Assembly (NCBI RefSeq): GCF_033954835.1
Contig: NZ_CP121471.1
Coordinates: 124,001 to 188,000, forward strand
From: Thiorhodovibrio frisius
GTDB taxonomy: Bacteria > Pseudomonadota > Gammaproteobacteria > Chromatiales > Chromatiaceae
Direction of reading: 5' to 3'
DNA length: 64,000 nucleotides
In this document: positions 1-62,712 of the stretch, piece after piece
Numbering within the stretch: the stretch's first letter is position 1
Layout of the letters: each line of letters starts with the position of its first letter
The notes under the pieces: generated by a model
What the model was told of the DNA's origin: nothing
Database searches by the model: none
What the model saw: only the letters and a program-made list of their open reading frames with translations
Made by a program: the position numbers and the translations under genes

Positions 1-1969
1 GCGTGTTCTAGCGGGTTAGAGTCCCGCCTGGGTAATCGTGAGCCGCGAGCCCAGTATCGAGCCTTGGGGCACGAATGGTAACAGACGCGTCCATGCGTAG
101 GCACGAAAACAGGCGAGGTGCAAAGGTAGCGGGTGAAGCCGCCCCTGAAGGTGTAGAGCCCCGAAAATTACGTTGGAGAGTGCCGACGGGTTTGGCCCCC
201 CGGCAGGCAACACTGCATGTCGCGTCAAGGTCAGTGGCATGGAGACTCCCCGGGGTCCGAGGCCGTATCGAGCCTGACATTGAGAGCACGTGGTAACCAG
301 GGAGATCCGTGCATCGGTCTGCGGGAAGCGGGCACCGGCGAACAAGTGTAAAAAGCGAGGACGCCGGCGGTGTTGCACGGAAGTCGGAGCCACTCGTATG
401 AGCGATGACGCCCGGTAATGCGGGACGAGCAAAGGAGTGGCGGTCTGAGATAATGTGACAGTGACACACGTCCCTACGCTGAGAGGACTAAGAGCGTGAC
501 AACCAAACTGAAGCGTTTCACACTGAAGGCGCGCGAGGAACTGCATACGCGGTTCACCTCCCTGATGGGGTTGCTGTTTGATCCCGAGGGGTTGCGTGAG
601 AGCTTCGGACGGCAAGACGGACGCAAGGCGCCCGGAGTTGACGGGGTAAGAAAGGAGGACTATGCCAAGGGCCTATTGGCTCGCTTGGAGGACTTATCGG
701 CACGGATACGCCGACTGGGCTACAGGCCGCAACCGGTGCGGCGAACCTACATCCCGAAAGGAGATGGGCGTATGCGCCCACTGGGCGTTCCGAGTTTCGA
801 GGATCGTCTGGTGCAGGATCGTCTTAGCCAAATCTTGCAGGCCATTTGGGAGCCGGAGTTTCGGGACTGCTCCTATGGCTTTCGCCCTGGGCGCAGTGCG
901 CACGATTCGCTGCGACGGGTCGCGGAGGTCATCACTAACGAACGGACGCAATGGGTGGTTGAAGCCGACATCAAAGGCTTCTTCGACCACGTCTCCCATG
1001 CCCATCTGCTGCGCTTTCTGGAGCACCGCATTGGCGATCCGAACTTTCTACGGATCATCCAACGGTTTCTGAAGGCCGGCATCATGGACGATGGCGTATT
1101 CACAGCCAGCGTCGAGGGGACACCGCAAGGTGGATTGGTCTCGCCCGTGTTAAGTAATATCTACCTGCACTACGTTCTCGACCTTTGGTTCGAAAAGCGT
1201 TTTGCACGCCAGTGTGCGGGCAAGGCCTACCTGATTCGCTACGCCGATGACTTTGTGGCCTGCTTTGAGTACGAAGCCGACGCCCGCGCATTTCTCACCG
1301 AGATGCCTGCGCGTTTGGCCGAGTTCGCTCTGGAGATCGAGCCGAGCAAGACGGCGTTGCTGCAATTTGGCAGTGCCATGCTCGGACGTCGGCGGGTGCA
1401 ATGCCAGGGACCACGCACCTTCAGTTTTCTTGGTTTCACCCACTACGTGGGTCGGAGTCGGACGGGGCGCTTTGTGGTCGGTCGCAAAACCGACGGCAAG
1501 CGCCTGCGCAAGAAGCTCAAGGCCCTCAACGCGCGCCTGCGGGACTTGCGTACTGAGGGAGGGAACGCCATGGTGGCCTTCCTTGCGCGGCATCTGCAAG
1601 GACACATCCAGTACTATGGCGTCAGCGGTAACAGTCGCGGGCTGTCGAGCTACGTCTACTTTGCCCAACGGCTGCTGTTTACATGGCTAAACAGGCGAAG
1701 TCAGAAGCGCTCGGTGAACTGGAAACAGTTCTCGGCGTATATCCGGCTGCTGCTGCCCAAGGCACGCATTCTCCATAATCTCTACCCCGTCCCTTGGTGG
1801 ATGGCTCAGGCTGGGAGCCGGATGGTGTAACACTCCAAGTCCGGTTCTGCGAGGAGCCGGGAGTCGAGCTGCGCATGGTCAAGATATCGTGGCACCGCCG
1901 GGAAACCAGGCGGAAAACAGAGAAAACGAACGTTGACCTAAACACGGTAAGACCCCGGCTTACTCTCCG
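1..1969 (+). mobile_element. Group II intron, full-length copy 1 (5' end just outside window)
   Basis: Matches the two ORF-less introns at 8174 and 61911 over domain I (about 1-490) and over domains V/VI (about 1815-1969). By alignment about 17 nt of its 5' end lie before the window. Domain V is the GAGCCGGAT...GTCCGGTTC hairpin at 1815-1847. The reverse transcriptase gene lies in domain IV and its stop codon (1828-1830) falls inside domain V, which is unusual. The EBS1-like heptamer at 193-199 is TGGCCCC, differing by one base from TGTCCCC in the short copies, so this copy should prefer a GGGGCCA exon. The 3' flank leads into a truncated kdsB gene. Confidence 0.93.
496..1830 (+). CDS. ltrA: Group II intron reverse transcriptase/maturase
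   Basis: A 444-residue RT-maturase that would assist splicing of its host intron and reverse transcription into a DNA target. The GTG start at 496 follows a GAGAGGA ribosome site. RT fingers/palm motifs are visible (SYGFRPGRSAHD, EGTPQGGLVSPVLSN) with the catalytic YADD at residues 249-252, followed by the thumb/maturase X region. The protein ends soon after the X region without a recognisable HNH endonuclease domain, so it is probably an endonuclease-minus type. It could act in trans on the two ORF-less introns in this window, whose ribozyme parts are closely similar. Intact, no frameshift seen. Confidence 0.95.
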   Translation: MTTKLKRFTLKAREELHTRFTSLMGLLFDPEGLRESFGRQDGRKAPGVDGVRKEDYAKGLLARLEDLSARIRRLGYRPQPVRRTYIPKGDGRMRPLGVPSFEDRLVQDRLSQILQAIWEPEFRDCSYGFRPGRSAHDSLRRVAEVITNERTQWVVEADIKGFFDHVSHAHLLRFLEHRIGDPNFLRIIQRFLKAGIMDDGVFTASVEGTPQGGLVSPVLSNIYLHYVLDLWFEKRFARQCAGKAYLIRYADDFVACFEYEADARAFLTEMPARLAEFALEIEPSKTALLQFGSAMLGRRRVQCQGPRTFSFLGFTHYVGRSRTGRFVVGRKTDGKRLRKKLKALNARLRDLRTEGGNAMVAFLARHLQGHIQYYGVSGNSRGLSSYVYFAQRLLFTWLNRRSQKRSVNWKQFSAYIRLLLPKARILHNLYPVPWWMAQAGSRMV

Positions 1970-1986
1970 GTTGAATTTATTTTACC

Positions 1987-2614
1987 ATGTCAACCCATCG
2001 CTCCGGCACCGAGCGCCTGATCGAGGTGATGGAGACGCTCGACGCCGCCATCTACATCAATCTACAAGGCGATGAGCCGCTGATCAGGCTAGCGGATATC
2101 GAGCGCCTGGCACAGGGCATGCTGGCGGATCCGTCCATCGCGGTCGGCACGCTGTATCATGCCATTGCGCCGCACGAGGCCCAGAATCCCAATGCAGTCA
2201 AGCTGGTCTTGGGACAGCAGGGCCATGCGCTCTATTTCAGCCGTGCACCGATTACCTTACCCGCGCGATGGCGAGCGGCATCCGGGCTTTTTCAAGCACG
2301 TTGGGGTCTATGCGTATCGGCGGTCGGTGCTGGAGCGCTATGCCACCTTGCCCGCCTGCGCGTTGGAGCAGACCGAGCAACTGGAGCAGTTGCGCTTGCT
2401 CGCGGCCGGGGTGCACATCCGCGCCTTTGAGGTGGCGCACACTGGGCCGGGTGTGGATACCCCAGCGTGCCTGGAGGCCGTGCGTGCCTTGCTAGCCGGC
2501 CAGCAGGGCGGCGCTGCGTGAGCTGGCTGATGCGATTCTGGAGGCGCAGGGCAAGGCGGCTGTCTTCCAGTCAGCGACGGGGTTTAATAGGGTAGCCGCC
2601 GGTATGGCGCAATA
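1987..2614 (+). pseudogene. kdsB: kdsB-kdsC remnant (CMP-Kdo synthetase fused to KdsC C-terminus)
   Basis: Encodes the middle and end of CMP-Kdo synthetase: the GTERLIEV and LQGDEPLI regions, then after a +1 frameshift near 2255 the [20 protein letters not shown] and GPGVDTP regions. The N-terminal 70 or so residues are missing, replaced upstream by the intron. The extra base is clear by comparison with the second copy at 16090-16130. The reading then runs from the KdsB end (RALLAG) directly into the last 35 residues of KdsC (ALRELADAILEAQGKAA...) with the KdsC core deleted. Not functional. It sits 21 nt before an intact kdsD. Confidence 0.85.
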
Positions 2615-2635
2615 AGGGGTCGGAAAGTCGCGAGT

Positions 2636-3619
2636 ATGGACAAAGAAAACACGAAAAACGAGCGCGATGCTCTGTCGAGCGTTCAAGCTGCCAAAGAGGT
2701 GTTTCAGATCCAGGCCAAGGCGCTCGAGGCGACGGCAGAGCGGCTGAATGGGGTTTTCGATCAAGCCGTTCATCTGATCCTCGAGACAACCGGGCGGGTG
2801 ATCGTCTCTGGCATGGGCAAGTCCGGTGCTATCGGCAACAAGATCGCGGCGACCTTGGCCTCGACCGGCACGCCAAGTTTTGCCGTGCATCCTGCCGAGG
2901 CCTATCACGGTGACCTGGGGATGTTTACGGCTGATGATGTTGCGATTCTGATTTCCTACAGCGGCGAGACAGAAGAGATCATTCGCCTGATTCCCTCACT
3001 GCGTCACTTTGGCGTGAAGACGATTGCACTGGTGGGGAATGCACAGTCGACCTTGGGTCGCAACGCCGATCTGGTGCTGGATATTTCCGTTGAGCGCGAG
3101 GCCTGCCCGAACAATCTCGCGCCGACGACTTCGACCACGGTCACGCTGGCGATGGGCGATGCCTTGGCGGTCGCCTTGATCAACCGCCGCCATTTCAAGC
3201 CCCAGGATTTTGCCATCTTCCATCCCGGCGGGAGTCTTGGGCGACGCCTCTTAACACGCATCAAGGATGTGATGCACGCTAACCTGCCATTGTGCGCACC
3301 TTTAGACAGCTTGCGGGATGTGATCATGACCATCACCCAAGCCGGGTTGGGCGTTGGCGTGGTGGTGGATAACGGGGCACTGAAGGGCGTGATTACCGAT
3401 GGTGACTTGCGCCGAGCGTTGTTTCATCATGACCGCATGGATAGCCTGACGGCCAGCGACATCATGACACGCTCGCCCCTGACGGTGAATGAAACCGAAA
3501 TGTTTGCTGACGCTGAAAACATTATGCTGAAAGCCAGTGTGACAGCGCTACTGGTAGTGAATGACCAAGGGGTGTTAACGGGGATTTTGAAACTTCAGGA
3601 TGCGAGTCAATTGAAGTAA
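2636..3619 (+). CDS. kdsD: D-arabinose 5-phosphate isomerase, copy 1
   Basis: Interconverts D-ribulose 5-phosphate and D-arabinose 5-phosphate, the first step of cytosolic Kdo synthesis for lipopolysaccharide or capsule. At 327 residues it has the family's usual length. An N-terminal SIS sugar-isomerase domain (about 45-185) carries GMGKSG at 59-64 and HPAEAYHGDLG at 85-95. The HPGGSLGRR motif is at 196-204, followed by two CBS domains (about 211-262 and 274-325). It differs by only a few residues from the copy at 16432, so the two blocks are a recent duplication. It follows a kdsB/kdsC remnant, as expected for an old kds operon. Confidence 0.95.
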   Translation: MDKENTKNERDALSSVQAAKEVFQIQAKALEATAERLNGVFDQAVHLILETTGRVIVSGMGKSGAIGNKIAATLASTGTPSFAVHPAEAYHGDLGMFTADDVAILISYSGETEEIIRLIPSLRHFGVKTIALVGNAQSTLGRNADLVLDISVEREACPNNLAPTTSTTVTLAMGDALAVALINRRHFKPQDFAIFHPGGSLGRRLLTRIKDVMHANLPLCAPLDSLRDVIMTITQAGLGVGVVVDNGALKGVITDGDLRRALFHHDRMDSLTASDIMTRSPLTVNETEMFADAENIMLKASVTALLVVNDQGVLTGILKLQDASQLK

Positions 3620-8173: not shown

Positions 8174-8975
8174 GTGCGGCCTGGCAAGGCCGCGTGCTCT
8201 AGCGGGTTAGAGTCCCGCCTGGGTAATCGTGAGCCGCGAGCCCGGTATCAAGCCTTACGGCGCGAAGGGTAACTGACGCGTCGGTGCGTAGGCATGAAAA
8301 CAGGCGAGGTGCAAAGGTAGCGGGTGAAGCCGCCCCTGAAGGTGTAGAGCCCCGAAAAGAATTTGTCGGAGAGTGCCGACGGGTTTGTCCCCCCGGCAGG
8401 CAACACTCCATGTCGCGTCAAGGTCAGTGGCATGGAGACTCCCCGGGGTCCGAGGCCGTATCGAGCCTTACATTGAGAGCACGTGGTAACCAGGGAGATC
8501 CAACAGCCGGTCTGCGGGAGGTGGGCACCGATGAACAAGTCTAATCAACGAGGACATCGGCGGTGGTTGCTGGAAGTCGGAGCCACTCGTATGAGCGATG
8601 ACGCCCGGTAATGCGGGTCGAGCAAAGGAGTGGCGGTTTGGGAGATTGCATTGGTCTAACACGCCCCTACACCGAGAGGACTCTGCGCGTGAAAACGAGA
8701 GCCGATGCGATTCACACCAATGGAGCCAAGCGCGAGAAACATGGGTGGTCTGATGGAAGGAGGGCTTTCTGTGTTGATGGGTTGAGACAGCCCATTCCTT
8801 GGTGAATGACCTGAACTGGGAGCCGGATGGTGTAACACTCCAAGTCCGGTTCTGCGAGGAGCCGGGTAACGAAGCTGCGCACGGTCATAATATTGTGGCA
8901 CCGCCGGGAAACCAGGCGGAAACAGAGAAAACAAACCTTGACCTAAACGCGGACAAGTTCCCGGCTTACTCTCCG
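8174..8975 (+). mobile_element. ORF-less group II intron, copy 2
   Basis: An 802-nt intron beginning GTGCGGCC and ending CTCTCCG (the last G could belong to the exon). It appears identical over its length to the copy at 61911. Domain IV is reduced to about 110 nt with no RT gene. Domain V starts at 8820. EBS1-like TGTCCCC at 8386-8392 is complementary to the GGGGACA at the end of the 5' exon (8167-8173). The site without an intron is visible at 5745-5775, where GGGGACA is followed by related DNA (ataccga...ccctgcgctgatcc). Mobility would need RT supplied in trans, for example from copy 1. Confidence 0.93.
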
Positions 8976-10917: not shown

Positions 10918-11013
10918 TTCTGGGGACAGTATACTTAATTCCTAGACGAAGAACGCCGAATGCGCTTACAGTCTTACTAAGGCGTTTGTGACGGGTGAGA
11001 AATTGACGGAACA
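10918..11013 (+). repeat. RAYT leader with unoccupied target motif
   Basis: Contains ggggaca followed by gtatacttaattcctagac, the same leader found at 51363, 60950 and 62713 and in variant form at 19056. It lies directly upstream of a REP transposase gene. Just before it is a short imperfect tandem repeat (ggattc units, 10885-10920). This is the reference site without intron or IS1111. Confidence 0.8.
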
Positions 11014-17415: not shown

Positions 17416-17431
17416 GTTCGGGGTTTCGGGG

Positions 17432-17975
17432 ACATATATGGTCCGCCCCGCGATGCAAGAGGAAAATCGCTGATTTGGTAGAAGGAAACGTTGCGGCCAT
17501 ATATCCGGCATCGTTAGCGGGATCATCATCAAAGTCGATCCCCGTGCCCTAATGGAATTCGCGTACCTCGCCGTCCTCAATCAGTATATCAGTCTCAGCT
17601 TACGCTGGCTGCTGTCCCCGTCAGGTTTTCGGCGAGGCGGCCGTACCTTTCATGCCATTACAGTGAATTTCACTCTTCGCAACTCGTGGTGTGGAACTCG
17701 GTTGATGCCCAATCAGGGCGGGTTAATCGGAGTGGTTCATGGCCAATCGGGCGTTACGCGGTAACGGCCGCAGGCTTCGCTAAGGCACCGCGCTCGGCAT
17801 CGAAGGCCTTGCCGGTGGTCATCACCGCCCAAGCGATGCGCACGAGTTTGTTGGCCATCGCAACCACGGCGACATTGGCATGACGGCGCTGCTTGAGATC
17901 CCGCGCCCAATGACTGAGGGCGTCGTCCTTCTTCTCAACCCAGCGCATCATTGCACGCGCCCCGTTAATCAAAGG
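17432..17975 (-). mobile_element. Partial IS1111 element
   Basis: Begins just after ggggaca (17425-17431) with tat and the subterminal repeat atggtccgccccgc. It includes the whole noncoding region downstream of the transposase (to 17753) and the last 70 or so codons of the transposase on the minus strand (17754-17975). The rest of the gene and the other end are missing. The presumed guide segment (agtata at 17583-17588, tgtcccc at 17613-17619) is preserved. Close relative of the full copy at 49849. DNA from 17976 to 18200 holds nothing I recognise, apart from an uncharacterised 48-codon frame at 18041. Confidence 0.85.
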
Positions 17976-49738: not shown

Positions 49739-49869
49739 AGCTATACTCAGCTTCTGGAGCAAGAGGTCTTCGTGTGAGTGTCAAGGGTGTTCAAGATCAC
49801 AATTCCAATTCAATTCCAATTCTGCCAATTCTGCCAATTCTGGGGACATATATGGTCCGCCCCGCGATG

Positions 49870-50167
49870 CAAGAGGAAAATCGCTGTTTGGTAGAAGGAA
49901 ACGTTGCGGCCATATATCCGGCATCGTTAAGAGGGATCATCATCGAAGTCGATCCCCGTGCCCTAATGGAATTCGCGTACCTCGCCGTCCTCAATCAGTA
50001 TATCAGTCTCAGCTTAAGCTGGCTGCTGTCCCCGTCAGGTTTTCAGCGAGGCGGTCGTACCTTTCATGCCATCACAGTGGATTTCACTCTTCGCAACTCG
50101 TGGTGTGGAACTCGGTTGATGCCCGATCAGGGCGGGTTAATCGGAATGGTTCGTGGCCGGTATGGCG
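49870..50167 (-). ncRNA. Candidate guide RNA (seekRNA/bridge RNA) of the IS1111 element
   Basis: Noncoding region between the transposase stop and the element end, conserved in the partial copy at 17432-17753. Read on the transposase strand, it contains GGGGACA (complement of 50027-50033) and TATACT (complement of 49997-50002) separated by 24 nt that include the palindrome CAGCTTAAGCTG. These are the two sides of the site in which the element sits. IS1111 elements are known to place a guide RNA in this position; the exact RNA ends are not determined. Confidence 0.65.
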
Positions 50168-51262
50168 TTACGCGGTAACGGCCGCAGGCTTTGCTAACGC
50201 CCCGCGCGCCGTATCGAAAGCCTTGCCGGTGGTCATCACCGCCCAAGCGATGCGCACGAGCTTGTTGGCCATCGCAACCACGGCGACATTGGCATGACGG
50301 CGCTGCTTGAGATCCCGCGCCCAATGACTGAGAGCGTCGTCTTTCTTCTCAACCCAGCGCATCATTGCACGCGCCCCGTTGATTAAGAGTTTGCGCATGT
50401 ACACATCGCCCCGTTTACTGATTCCGAGCAAGCGCGGTTTCCCGCCGGTGGAGTGCTGTCGCGGCACCAGCCCCAGCCAGGCGGCCAGCGCGCGGCCATT
50501 GTTGAACAGCCCCCAATTGTCGCCCAATGTGGCAATCAAGGCGGTAGCGACCAGCGGGCCGATGCCGGGAATGCTCCTTAACAGCTGGACCGACTCATTG
50601 GTGTCGGCGACGGCCTGAATCTGAGTATCATAATGCTTGACCCGCGTATCCATGTGACGCAGCTCCTCAAGGAGCCCGTTCAATTCGGCGCGAAACCGCT
50701 CGCTGAGTCCATTCTCGGCGTCTTCAAGGATTTCCGGCAGGCGGCGCATGAGCTCAGCACGCCCTTGAGCAATGACAATGCCGTATTCGGCCAACAAACC
50801 CCGGATCTGATTGACCAGTGCCGTGCGCTGATCAATGACCATTGAGCGCATGCGGTGGGTACCCTGGATATCCTGCTGTTCAACGTTCTTGATGGGCACG
50901 AACAACTGGCGTGGGCGTCGCGCGGCTTCGCAGATCGCCTCGGCATCGACGGCGTCGTTCTTGTTGGTCTTCACAAAGGGCTTCACATGCTGCGGGGCGA
51001 TCAACACCACCTCATGGCCGAACCCCTGGAAGGTGCGTGCCCAATGGTGGGCGCCACTACAGGCTTCCATGGCGATGCGACAGGTCGGCTGTTGGGCGAT
51101 GAACTGACTCAAAGCTTTACGGGCGACCTTGCGGCTAAATACCATCTCGCCTTGGGCGTCGACACCAAACACGTGCACGCTGTTCTTGGCCAGATCAATG
51201 CCAATGGTGGCAACCGGTTCTTTGCTGAACGTCTTCATGGATTTTTTCTTTGCTTTTTTCAT
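50168..51262 (-). CDS. IS110-family transposase (IS1111 group)
   Basis: A 364-residue DEDD-type recombinase. RuvC-like N-terminal domain with TIGIDLAKNSVHVFGVD (D23), IAMEACSGAHHWAR and KTNKNDAVDAEAICEAA; helix-rich middle; Tnp-type C-terminal domain (LLRSIPGIGPLVATALIA, NGRALAAWLGLVPRQHSTGGK, LLINGARAMM with its conserved serine region upstream). Full length. The last 70 residues are nearly identical to the remnant at 17754. Confidence 0.95.
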   Translation of the reverse strand: MKKAKKKSMKTFSKEPVATIGIDLAKNSVHVFGVDAQGEMVFSRKVARKALSQFIAQQPTCRIAMEACSGAHHWARTFQGFGHEVVLIAPQHVKPFVKTNKNDAVDAEAICEAARRPRQLFVPIKNVEQQDIQGTHRMRSMVIDQRTALVNQIRGLLAEYGIVIAQGRAELMRRLPEILEDAENGLSERFRAELNGLLEELRHMDTRVKHYDTQIQAVADTNESVQLLRSIPGIGPLVATALIATLGDNWGLFNNGRALAAWLGLVPRQHSTGGKPRLLGISKRGDVYMRKLLINGARAMMRWVEKKDDALSHWARDLKQRRHANVAVVAMANKLVRIAWAVMTTGKAFDTARGALAKPAAVTA

Positions 51263-51362
51263 GACTCTTCTCCGCAGTCTTCGGTTAACGATTAGGTGGT
51301 TGTCGATAGCCTATTTTGCTTGATTCAGAGGGTTTTTAGGAGCGGGGCAGACCATCCCATTA

Positions 51363-51487
51363 GTATACTTAATTCCTAGACGCAGCCCGCCAAATAGGGC
51401 TATATTCTTGCTAAGTCTCTGTGACTAAGGTCAGACATTGGCGAAACAATGGCAAGACTCCCGAGAGTGGTGGTTCCGGGGTTGCCG
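51363..51487 (+). pseudogene. RAYT leader and first 13 codons
   Basis: gtatacttaattcctagac leader, then MARLPRVVVPGLP from 51449, matching the RAYT at 11014. IS66 starts immediately after. Together with GGGGACA left of IS1111 this was one RAYT cassette hit by two elements. Confidence 0.85.
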
Positions 51488-51573
51488 GTAAGCGCTCAGT
51501 TAAGTACATCTAGCCCAGCCCATGGCGATCAGCCACGATGCCCACCACATGAACAGCGACAGAGGGCATCAGC

Positions 51574-51936
51574 ATGGCACAGAGGCGGCGCACTCGCCAG
51601 CAGTGGCAAGCGTTGGTTGATGGGTGGGCGAGCAGCGGCCTGACCCAGGGCGAGTACTGCCGGCGCCAGGGCATCTCGGTGGCGAGTTTTGCGCGCTGGC
51701 GCGCCATCTTCCGCCGCGCGCGGCAACGCCAGCCGGCGGAGCCAACGCCCAGCGCCGGCCCCACTCATAGCCTGGTCCCGGTGCACTGGCTCAGCGACGA
51801 CGCACCCACCGCCACCACCGCCACCACCGCGCTGAGTCTGCATTGTCCCGGTGGTCTGCGCCTGGATATCGGTGTCGGCGTTGATGTCTCGACATTGCAA
51901 CAGGTCATCCGACTCCTACGCGCAGCCGCCTCATGA
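51574..51936 (+). CDS. tnpA: IS66 TnpA
   Basis: 120 residues with the N-terminal HTH of IS66 OrfA (RTRQQWQALVDGWASSGLTQGEYCRRQGISVASFARWRAIF). The C-terminal part (SLHCPGGLRLDIGVGVDVSTLQQVIRLL) is also typical. Overlaps tnpB by 4 nt. Confidence 0.92.
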   Translation: MAQRRRTRQQWQALVDGWASSGLTQGEYCRRQGISVASFARWRAIFRRARQRQPAEPTPSAGPTHSLVPVHWLSDDAPTATTATTALSLHCPGGLRLDIGVGVDVSTLQQVIRLLRAAAS

Positions 51937-61910: not shown

Positions 61911-62712
61911 GTGCGGCCTGGCAAGGCCGCGTGCTCTAGCGGGTTAGAGTCCCGCCTGGGTAATCGTGAGCCGCGAGCCCGGTATCAAGCCTTACGGCGC
62001 GAAGGGTAACTGACGCGTCGGTGCGTAGGCATGAAAACAGGCGAGGTGCAAAGGTAGCGGGTGAAGCCGCCCCTGAAGGTGTAGAGCCCCGAAAAGAATT
62101 TGTCGGAGAGTGCCGACGGGTTTGTCCCCCCGGCAGGCAACACTCCATGTCGCGTCAAGGTCAGTGGCATGGAGACTCCCCGGGGTCCGAGGCCGTATCG
62201 AGCCTTACATTGAGAGCACGTGGTAACCAGGGAGATCCAACAGCCGGTCTGCGGGAGGTGGGCACCGATGAACAAGTCTAATCAACGAGGACATCGGCGG
62301 TGGTTGCTGGAAGTCGGAGCCACTCGTATGAGCGATGACGCCCGGTAATGCGGGTCGAGCAAAGGAGTGGCGGTTTGGGAGATTGCATTGGTCTAACACG
62401 CCCCTACACCGAGAGGACTCTGCGCGTGAAAACGAGAGCCGATGCGATTCACACCAATGGAGCCAAGCGCGAGAAACATGGGTGGTCTGATGGAAGGAGG
62501 GCTTTCTGTGTTGATGGGTTGAGACAGCCCATTCCTTGGTGAATGACCTGAACTGGGAGCCGGATGGTGTAACACTCCAAGTCCGGTTCTGCGAGGAGCC
62601 GGGTAACGAAGCTGCGCACGGTCATAATATTGTGGCACCGCCGGGAAACCAGGCGGAAACAGAGAAAACAAACCTTGACCTAAACGCGGACAAGTTCCCG
62701 GCTTACTCTCCG
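61911..62712 (+). mobile_element. ORF-less group II intron, copy 3
   Basis: 802 nt, apparently identical to the copy at 8174. It is inserted exactly in a RAYT leader: GGGGACA (61904-61910) on the left and tatacttaattcctagac (62713) on the right. EBS1-like TGTCCCC at 62123-62129. No RT gene. Identity of the two copies indicates recent mobility. Confidence 0.95.

Follow-up and report, generated by a model that had tools for sequence, protein, structure and literature searches.

An IS1111-type insertion sequence with two putative guide words in a predicted noncoding-RNA hairpin

The 64-kb window, the whole stretch of DNA that was analysed, contains a complete IS1111-type insertion sequence whose insertion site appears to be chosen by two guide words in the loop of a noncoding-RNA hairpin, a reading to which we assign a probability of roughly 0.93. 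The noncoding RNA would be made from the region that follows the transposase gene and would fold into a hairpin with both guides in its internal loop. Guide 1 (GGGGACAG) would pair with the transposase strand to the right of the insertion point and guide 2 (TATACTG) with the opposite strand, to the left of the insertion point and across the core, and together they would choose the repeated site GTATAC·TGTCCCC (dot at the junction). In further, putative steps the RNA is transcribed, processed and bound by the transposase, the element forms a circle with TATAAT across its joined ends, and its own ends are recognised by a second loop that binds the donor. The evidence presented here consists of the element's ends, uninterrupted copies of its site, covariation of the guides with the flanks and covariation of the hairpin stem, all read from the sequence. 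RNA-guided targeting, as proposed in the first-pass annotation, is supported by the uninterrupted sites, by the position of the words in the loop of a conserved hairpin and by joint changes of words and flanks, including those in a relative from the same genome. The RNA-guide mechanism itself was already published in 2024, with experiments on other IS1111 members described in sections of PMC11187229, and the element joins that recently described kind. The present analysis turns the published mechanism into a sequence-readable rule, by which one structure model gives the likely target of many IS1111 elements, and adds an extensive test of the guide code on natural elements together with evidence on donor recognition.

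Table 1. Features of the element, its predicted guide RNA and its target site (window positions)
Feature	Position	Strand	Details
Uninterrupted target GGGGACAGTATACTTAATTC	10922..10941	+	locus L133; upstream of RAYT-like reading frame (MARLPRVVVPGLPHHVTQRGNRR...)
Truncated copy (L004)	17435..17972	-	right end, guide module, end of transposase gene
Target half GGGGACA	49842..49848	+	read from sequence
Complete IS1111-type element	49849..51362	-	1514 bp; ends from sTIR plus 7/3-bp extensions and uninterrupted sites
Right end	49849..49865	-	sTIR GCGGGGCGGACCAT 49852-49865, outer extension ATA 49849-49851
Donor word 2 ATATATG (putative)	49911..49917	-	equals right-end ATATA plus core TG
Donor word 1 TCCATTA (putative)	49964..49970	-	complementary to left end TAATGG; next base G opposite U
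Target-binding hairpin of predicted guide RNA	49979..50052	-	fold: outer stem, CCT/AGG, internal loop, apical hairpin
Guide 2 TATACTG	49996..50002	-	equals transposase strand -5 to +2, spanning junction (TATAC·TG)
Apical hairpin CAGC-TTAA-GCTG	50010..50021	-	between guides; stem changes compensated in relatives
Guide 1 GGGGACAG	50026..50033	-	complementary to transposase-strand CTGTCCCC (-1 to +7)
Transposase	50168..51262	-	364 aa; Pfam DEDD_Tnp_IS110 and Transposase_20
Left end	51342..51362	-	sTIR ATGGTCTGCCCCGC 51342-51355, outer extension TAATGGG 51356-51362
Target half GTATACTTAATTCC	51363..51376	+	read from sequence
Start of RAYT-like gene (MARLPRVVVPGLP)	51449..51487	+	downstream of occupied target, cut off at 51487

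The element and its predicted guide hairpin

The transposase matches the NCBIfam model NF033542 'IS110 family RNA-guided transposase' (E 3.8e-110) as well as the ISCro4 and IS621 chains. Several features place the element in the IS1111 group: a DEDD/IS110-type transposase with a C-terminal Transposase_20 domain, the group's GL-P----S/TG motif, present in the translation as GLVPRQHSTG, and noncoding sequence that is longer downstream of the transposase gene (319 bp) than upstream (100 bp). The subterminal repeats are ATGGTCYGCCCCGC, extended by 7 and 3 bp; the 14-bp sTIR consensus, read on the transposase strand, is ATGGTC(T/C)GCCCCGC with one mismatch, again in agreement with the group. A repeat search with an exact 9-base seed did not report the sTIR, which was found by a dedicated script. 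The 3-bp right extension beside the sTIR is likewise the layout of the IS1111 group, and sections of PMC11187229 name the 7-bp extension for it.

Joining the flanks gives GGGGACA followed directly by GTATACTTAATTCC, that is, GTATAC·TGTCCCC on the transposase strand, which is identical to uninterrupted sites; insertion at this specific site therefore adds no bases, as in the IS1111 group. The borders proposed earlier, GGGGACA at 49842-49848 and GTATACTTAATTCCTAGAC from 51363, hold at exactly these coordinates. GGGGACA was also considered as part of the element and rejected, because the uninterrupted sites carry it too.

When the right and left ends of the window element are joined, TATAAT lies exactly across the junction. 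By eye, TTGCAT stands upstream of it with a 16-base spacing; the script preferred CTTGCA, which overlaps TTGCAT and has a spacing of 17 and 3/6 matches. All 33 distinct end pairs (33/33) give a junction hexamer with at least 3/6 TATAAT bases. The -35 part is weak, since the corresponding hexamers match TTGACA at just 3 or 4 of 6 positions. A junction promoter has been published for ISEc11 (in sections of PMC11187229).

The predicted fold places both guides in an internal loop that is bounded by a 9-bp outer stem (plus CCT/AGG) on one side and by the apical hairpin on the other. Guide 2 is 3' of guide 1, and their two site matches overlap at the junction, so that in the folded RNA the top-strand match would lie 5' of the bottom-strand match, as in the seekRNA system. 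Over 17 sequences, 96.5% of the hairpin's pair cells are standard and 4/20 pairs have changed on both sides; the covariation score was reached by 0/500 shuffles, a control that leaves relatedness in. The first-pass annotation had placed GGGGACA (complement of 50027-50033) and TATACT (complement of 49997-50002) in this region, 24 nt apart with the palindrome CAGCTTAAGCTG between them. These coordinates are correct, and the palindrome lies at 50010-50021. The second word was rightly located and needed revision in strand and length: it is TATACTG (complement of 49996-50002) and would pair with the other strand. The junction-spanning TATACTG, whose register is common to other elements, replaced the reading of TATACT as a plus-strand flank word; that match also exists because AGTATACT is a palindrome.

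A fold burying both words in stems would have spoken against guide function; neither word falls within the conserved stems. Neither word is wholly free either, since weak pairs among a few guide bases span the loop when the window sequence is folded to minimum energy. The whole 298-nt noncoding strand folds no better than shuffles (z -0.29), and folding of this whole region was dropped as a significance test since it gave no signal. Folded alone, six hairpin modules range from z -0.49 to -2.94.

The arrangement resembles that of the IS1111 seekRNA elements ISEc11, ISPa11 and ISKpn4 as described in parts of PMC11187229: the noncoding region lies downstream of the transposase gene, the sTIR carry outer extensions, and the top-strand match lies 5' of the bottom-strand match with an overlap at the junction. 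The hairpin here has 74 nt, compared with 82-96 nt for those seekRNAs. Unlike them, the RNA described here is predicted from sequence, a donor-matching loop can also be read, and the target is a dispersed repeat that precedes genes of the Y1-transposase-like and DUF4351-like types. Most IS110-group elements, in contrast, have the RNA in the left end (PMC11208160, in part), whereas that of the window element lies downstream of the gene, beside a long sTIR; the guide order in IS110-group elements is also reversed relative to the window element (PMC11187229, in part).

A second loop and recognition of the element ends

The first-pass annotation covered the target words; a second, donor-matching loop had gone unnoticed. 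In order 3' of the target hairpin follow TCCATTA, a stem GGCA/TGCC enclosing a hairpin, and ATATATG. Set against the right and left ends joined as in a circle, the second loop has the same arrangement as the target loop, a putative pairing of loops that would parallel the target and donor loops with a common core in the bridge RNA of IS621 (IS110 family; PMC11208160, in part). The second loop is likely a donor-binding loop.

From 92 donor rows, 3 without word 2 and 5 off pattern were set aside, and the remainder gave 54 distinct segments. Because the text pattern used for the donor words itself fixes ATAxA in word 2 and some of word 1, the test is confined to the positions left free. With G-U counted, word 1 pairs with left-end bases 5-7 in 38/38 distinct donor segments with a left end and in 15/15 distinct combinations (permutation maximum 13; 0/20000 permutations), an agreement that rests on 4 changes on the transposase tree. 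The core agrees with word 2 in 50/54 distinct segments, including TT in 3 and GG in 1. The last pair of the donor lower stem is A-T in 26, T-A in 15, C-G in 5 and G-C in 4 of the 54 segments (not Watson-Crick in 4), and hence covaries through all four Watson-Crick pairs in 50/54. The controls on the donor loop leave shared ancestry in, which applies to word 1, word 2 and the stem alike.

These correspondences bear on a difference between two 2024 papers, namely whether RNA or protein recognises the ends of IS1111 elements. Sections of the bridge-RNA paper (Nature 2024, PMC11208160) predict donor-binding nucleotides in many IS1111 members. For ISEc11, sections of the second paper (Nature Communications 2024, PMC11187229) report that an 82-nt RNA containing the target matches was sufficient for movement, and leave the part played by the long RNA undecided. 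Only the target loop might act through RNA; the sTIR would then let the protein recognise the ends, and the second loop would be a processing or structural part of the longer RNA. The short ISEc11 RNA speaks for this explanation, as do the imperfect agreement of the right end, whose last five bases agree with word 2 in 44/54 distinct segments, and left-end base 2, which pairs in only 2/15 combinations. It is opposed by the repetition of the target-loop logic on the joined ends and by the tracking of left-end bases 5-7, core and stem described above, and we regard it as rather unlikely, though it deserves weight. The evidence favours a donor loop without settling it. A true donor-binding loop in IS1111 elements at large, with the RNA pairing with the left end and with the right end plus core in an arrangement like that of its target loop, seems to us somewhat better than an even bet. 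If so, both sides of the recombination would be open to reading, and possibly to programming, throughout the IS1111 group, and this would hold despite a short target-only RNA sufficing in one tested member.

Guide words and insertion sites across relatives

With a covariance model, the hairpin module was detected in 20/210 genomes of the order. In a search of 59 loci from the 80-locus set, whose highest-identity loci come from Rhabdochromatium and Halochromatium, 27 matched with E up to 0.1; two of these, L081 (part of the model) and L013, are closely related to the window element. Guides and flanks were read from 88 sources, namely loci that had a match or a known copy. They gave 94 model matches, some places being counted twice where loci overlap; a right flank and the full guide-1 segment were present in 87, and both flanks in 45. 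For many rows (e.g. L005, L081, L121, L217) the end-finding script returned no left end or the wrong inverted repeat, and such rows therefore contribute no left flank to the counts. Taking the first-listed row per distinct guide gave 42 guide-1 and 29 guide-2 units, a choice that hides the misfits L060 and L110. Guide 1 matched its own right flank at a mean of 6.74 of 8 positions versus 4.07 for the flanks of others, and guide 2 its own left flank at 4.10 of 5 versus 1.45 (0/20000 permutations each), which bears out the expectation that the words co-vary with the flanks across collected copies. A stricter check added four rows with recovered flanks (L110, L045, L024, L074) and used the worst or best copy per guide; with the worst copy, guide 1 scored 6.61 versus 4.08 (44 units) and guide 2 scored 3.93 versus 1.43 (30 units), again with 0/20000 permutations. 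On the transposase tree guide 1 (47 rows, 36 states) has undergone at least 35 changes, a count that is approximate because L220 and L234, probable wrong reading frames with end branches of 10 and 8.75, were left in.

Copies carrying the same words beside unrelated flanks were sought among the GGGGACAG-guide copies, which occupy 18 distinct places after merging of duplicates: TGTCCCC adjoins exactly in 14 and with one of seven bases off in 4, one case being L128, which has the GGGGACAG guide but adjoins TGGCCCC. GTATAC adjoins in 9/9 of those 18 places that have a script-recognised left end. The words change with the flanks, and the guide is readable from the sequence, as had been suggested, because relatives with other words mostly sit at correspondingly different sites.

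The fit is incomplete in a minority of copies. Guide 2 matches at 0/5 in L060 (same guide as L030), 1/5 in L104 and L238 (first copy), 2/5 in L071 and L110, and 3/5 in L123/L124, L239 and L092; guide 1 matches at 4/8 in L210 and 5/8 in L051, L057, L027, L035, L207 and L212. The register of guide 1 within the loop varies by up to three bases, and across the model guide 1 reaches from about +2 to +9 and guide 2 from about -5 to +2. Per-position guide-1 counts use only the 35/42 units scoring at least 6 and are hence biased upward. In G090, 14 copies share the single guide TAATCCTCA; TGAGGATTG adjoins in 5/14 and TGAGG in 10/14, which suggests that bases close to the junction matter most.

Two loci have structural peculiarities of their own. 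L238 (G090:C3:204000-209000) contains two right-end segments with guide modules in opposite orientation, the ends of these segments forming a 107-base inverted repeat. In L210 (G226:C23), GG replaces TG as the core; the right flank, guide 2 and donor word 2 all carry it, and G is the first base of the left end.

The genome (one contig, 5.42 Mb) contains the window element, the near-identical L002, the diverged L003 and the truncated L004 and L005. The truncated copy L004 keeps both words (17583-17588, 17613-17619) and adjoins GGGGACA (17428-17434), just as the first-pass annotation had it; its palindrome carries one change (CAGCTTACGCTG on the plus strand). L003 has 81% DNA identity to the window element and occupies a different site, GAACA·TGGACCCTT; its guide 1 (AAGGGTCCA) matches its own flank at 9/9 and its guide 2, GAACCTG, matches GAACA·TG at 6/7. 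The presence in a single genome of two elements that carry different guide words amounts to a natural retargeting experiment.

Shared flanks could also reflect shared history, the element having been copied along with the adjoining RAYT-like gene without moving by itself. Window positions 49836-51487 and L002 positions 1501-3152 have 1652 bp in common at 99.6%, including the start of that gene, so one flank haplotype accompanies both copies; their outer left flanks differ, and the flanks of L123 and L124 are also common to both. This pair (L001, the window copy, and L002) may indeed have been copied together with the neighbouring gene, and the explanation may hold for this pair alone. In three genomes other copies keep the core words although their outer flanks differ, and relatives that carry other guides occupy other sites, making the explanation very improbable as a general account. 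Also very improbable is that the transposase protein itself reads the site and the noncoding words are leftovers of earlier insertions or chance, for although the site is a repeated, partly palindromic motif of a kind that proteins could read and a minority of copies fit one guide word badly, the similar transposases of L003, L104 and L116 (within the window element's starred 12-row set in the tree) occur at different sites, with words at the same aligned position of the conserved hairpin and a guide 1 that fits its own flank at 8/8 (guide 2 of L104 does not fit).

The target site as a dispersed repeat

The site favoured by the two-guide reading is itself repetitive. The same genome contains 4 exact copies of the uninterrupted 13-mer and 7 matches of the 20-mer with at most 3 mismatches; two genomes of the same genus contain 53 and 3 matches of the 20-mer, and a reversed-pattern control gave at most 1 match in each of the three genomes. 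Within the window, 3 matches of the 20-nt site (at most 3 mismatches) compare with 0.00 expected from shuffles. Loci were available for 30 of the 63 matches, and the gene neighbourhoods of those 30 were examined: one of five recurrent gene types lies within 1.5 kb downstream in 25/30, a descriptive figure because 12 of these 30 loci also supplied the gene signatures. The nearest downstream gene is of DUF4351 type in 17, RAYT-like in 5 and a third repeated gene in 3 of the 30 loci. Pfam searches of five example downstream proteins returned Y1_Tnp for 2, DUF4351 for 1 and no family for 2; we take the Y1-transposase-like genes to be RAYT.

The target motif, standing ahead of multi-copy DUF4351-like and Y1-transposase-like genes in the examined loci, is a repeat family of its own. 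The landing pad of the element is a dispersed repeat. Among open-licence papers, we found no report of the exact 13-mer target site or of IS1111 together with 'REP-associated tyrosine transposase'. REPs are linked to Y1 (RAYT) transposases. Insertion into a repeated motif is shared with the REP-targeting ISPa11 and ISPpu9/10 (Tobes and Pareja 2006, PMC1525189, in part). Unlike those REP targets, the motif described here also precedes DUF4351-like genes, and its identity as a REP is only putative.

Clusters of the GGGGACAGTATACTTAATTC motif, mostly on one strand, occur at about 127-178 kb, 514-522 kb, 4402-4419 kb and 4684-4697 kb of G001:C1. The RAYT-like gene beside the window element stops after 13 codons, where other sequence (GTAAGCG...) starts (51487-51936); the open reading frame at 51574-51936 presumably encodes an IS66-type accessory protein, which it resembles. 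The window also contains matches to a group II intron (Rfam RF02005) at 18-265, 8209-8458 and 61946-62195.
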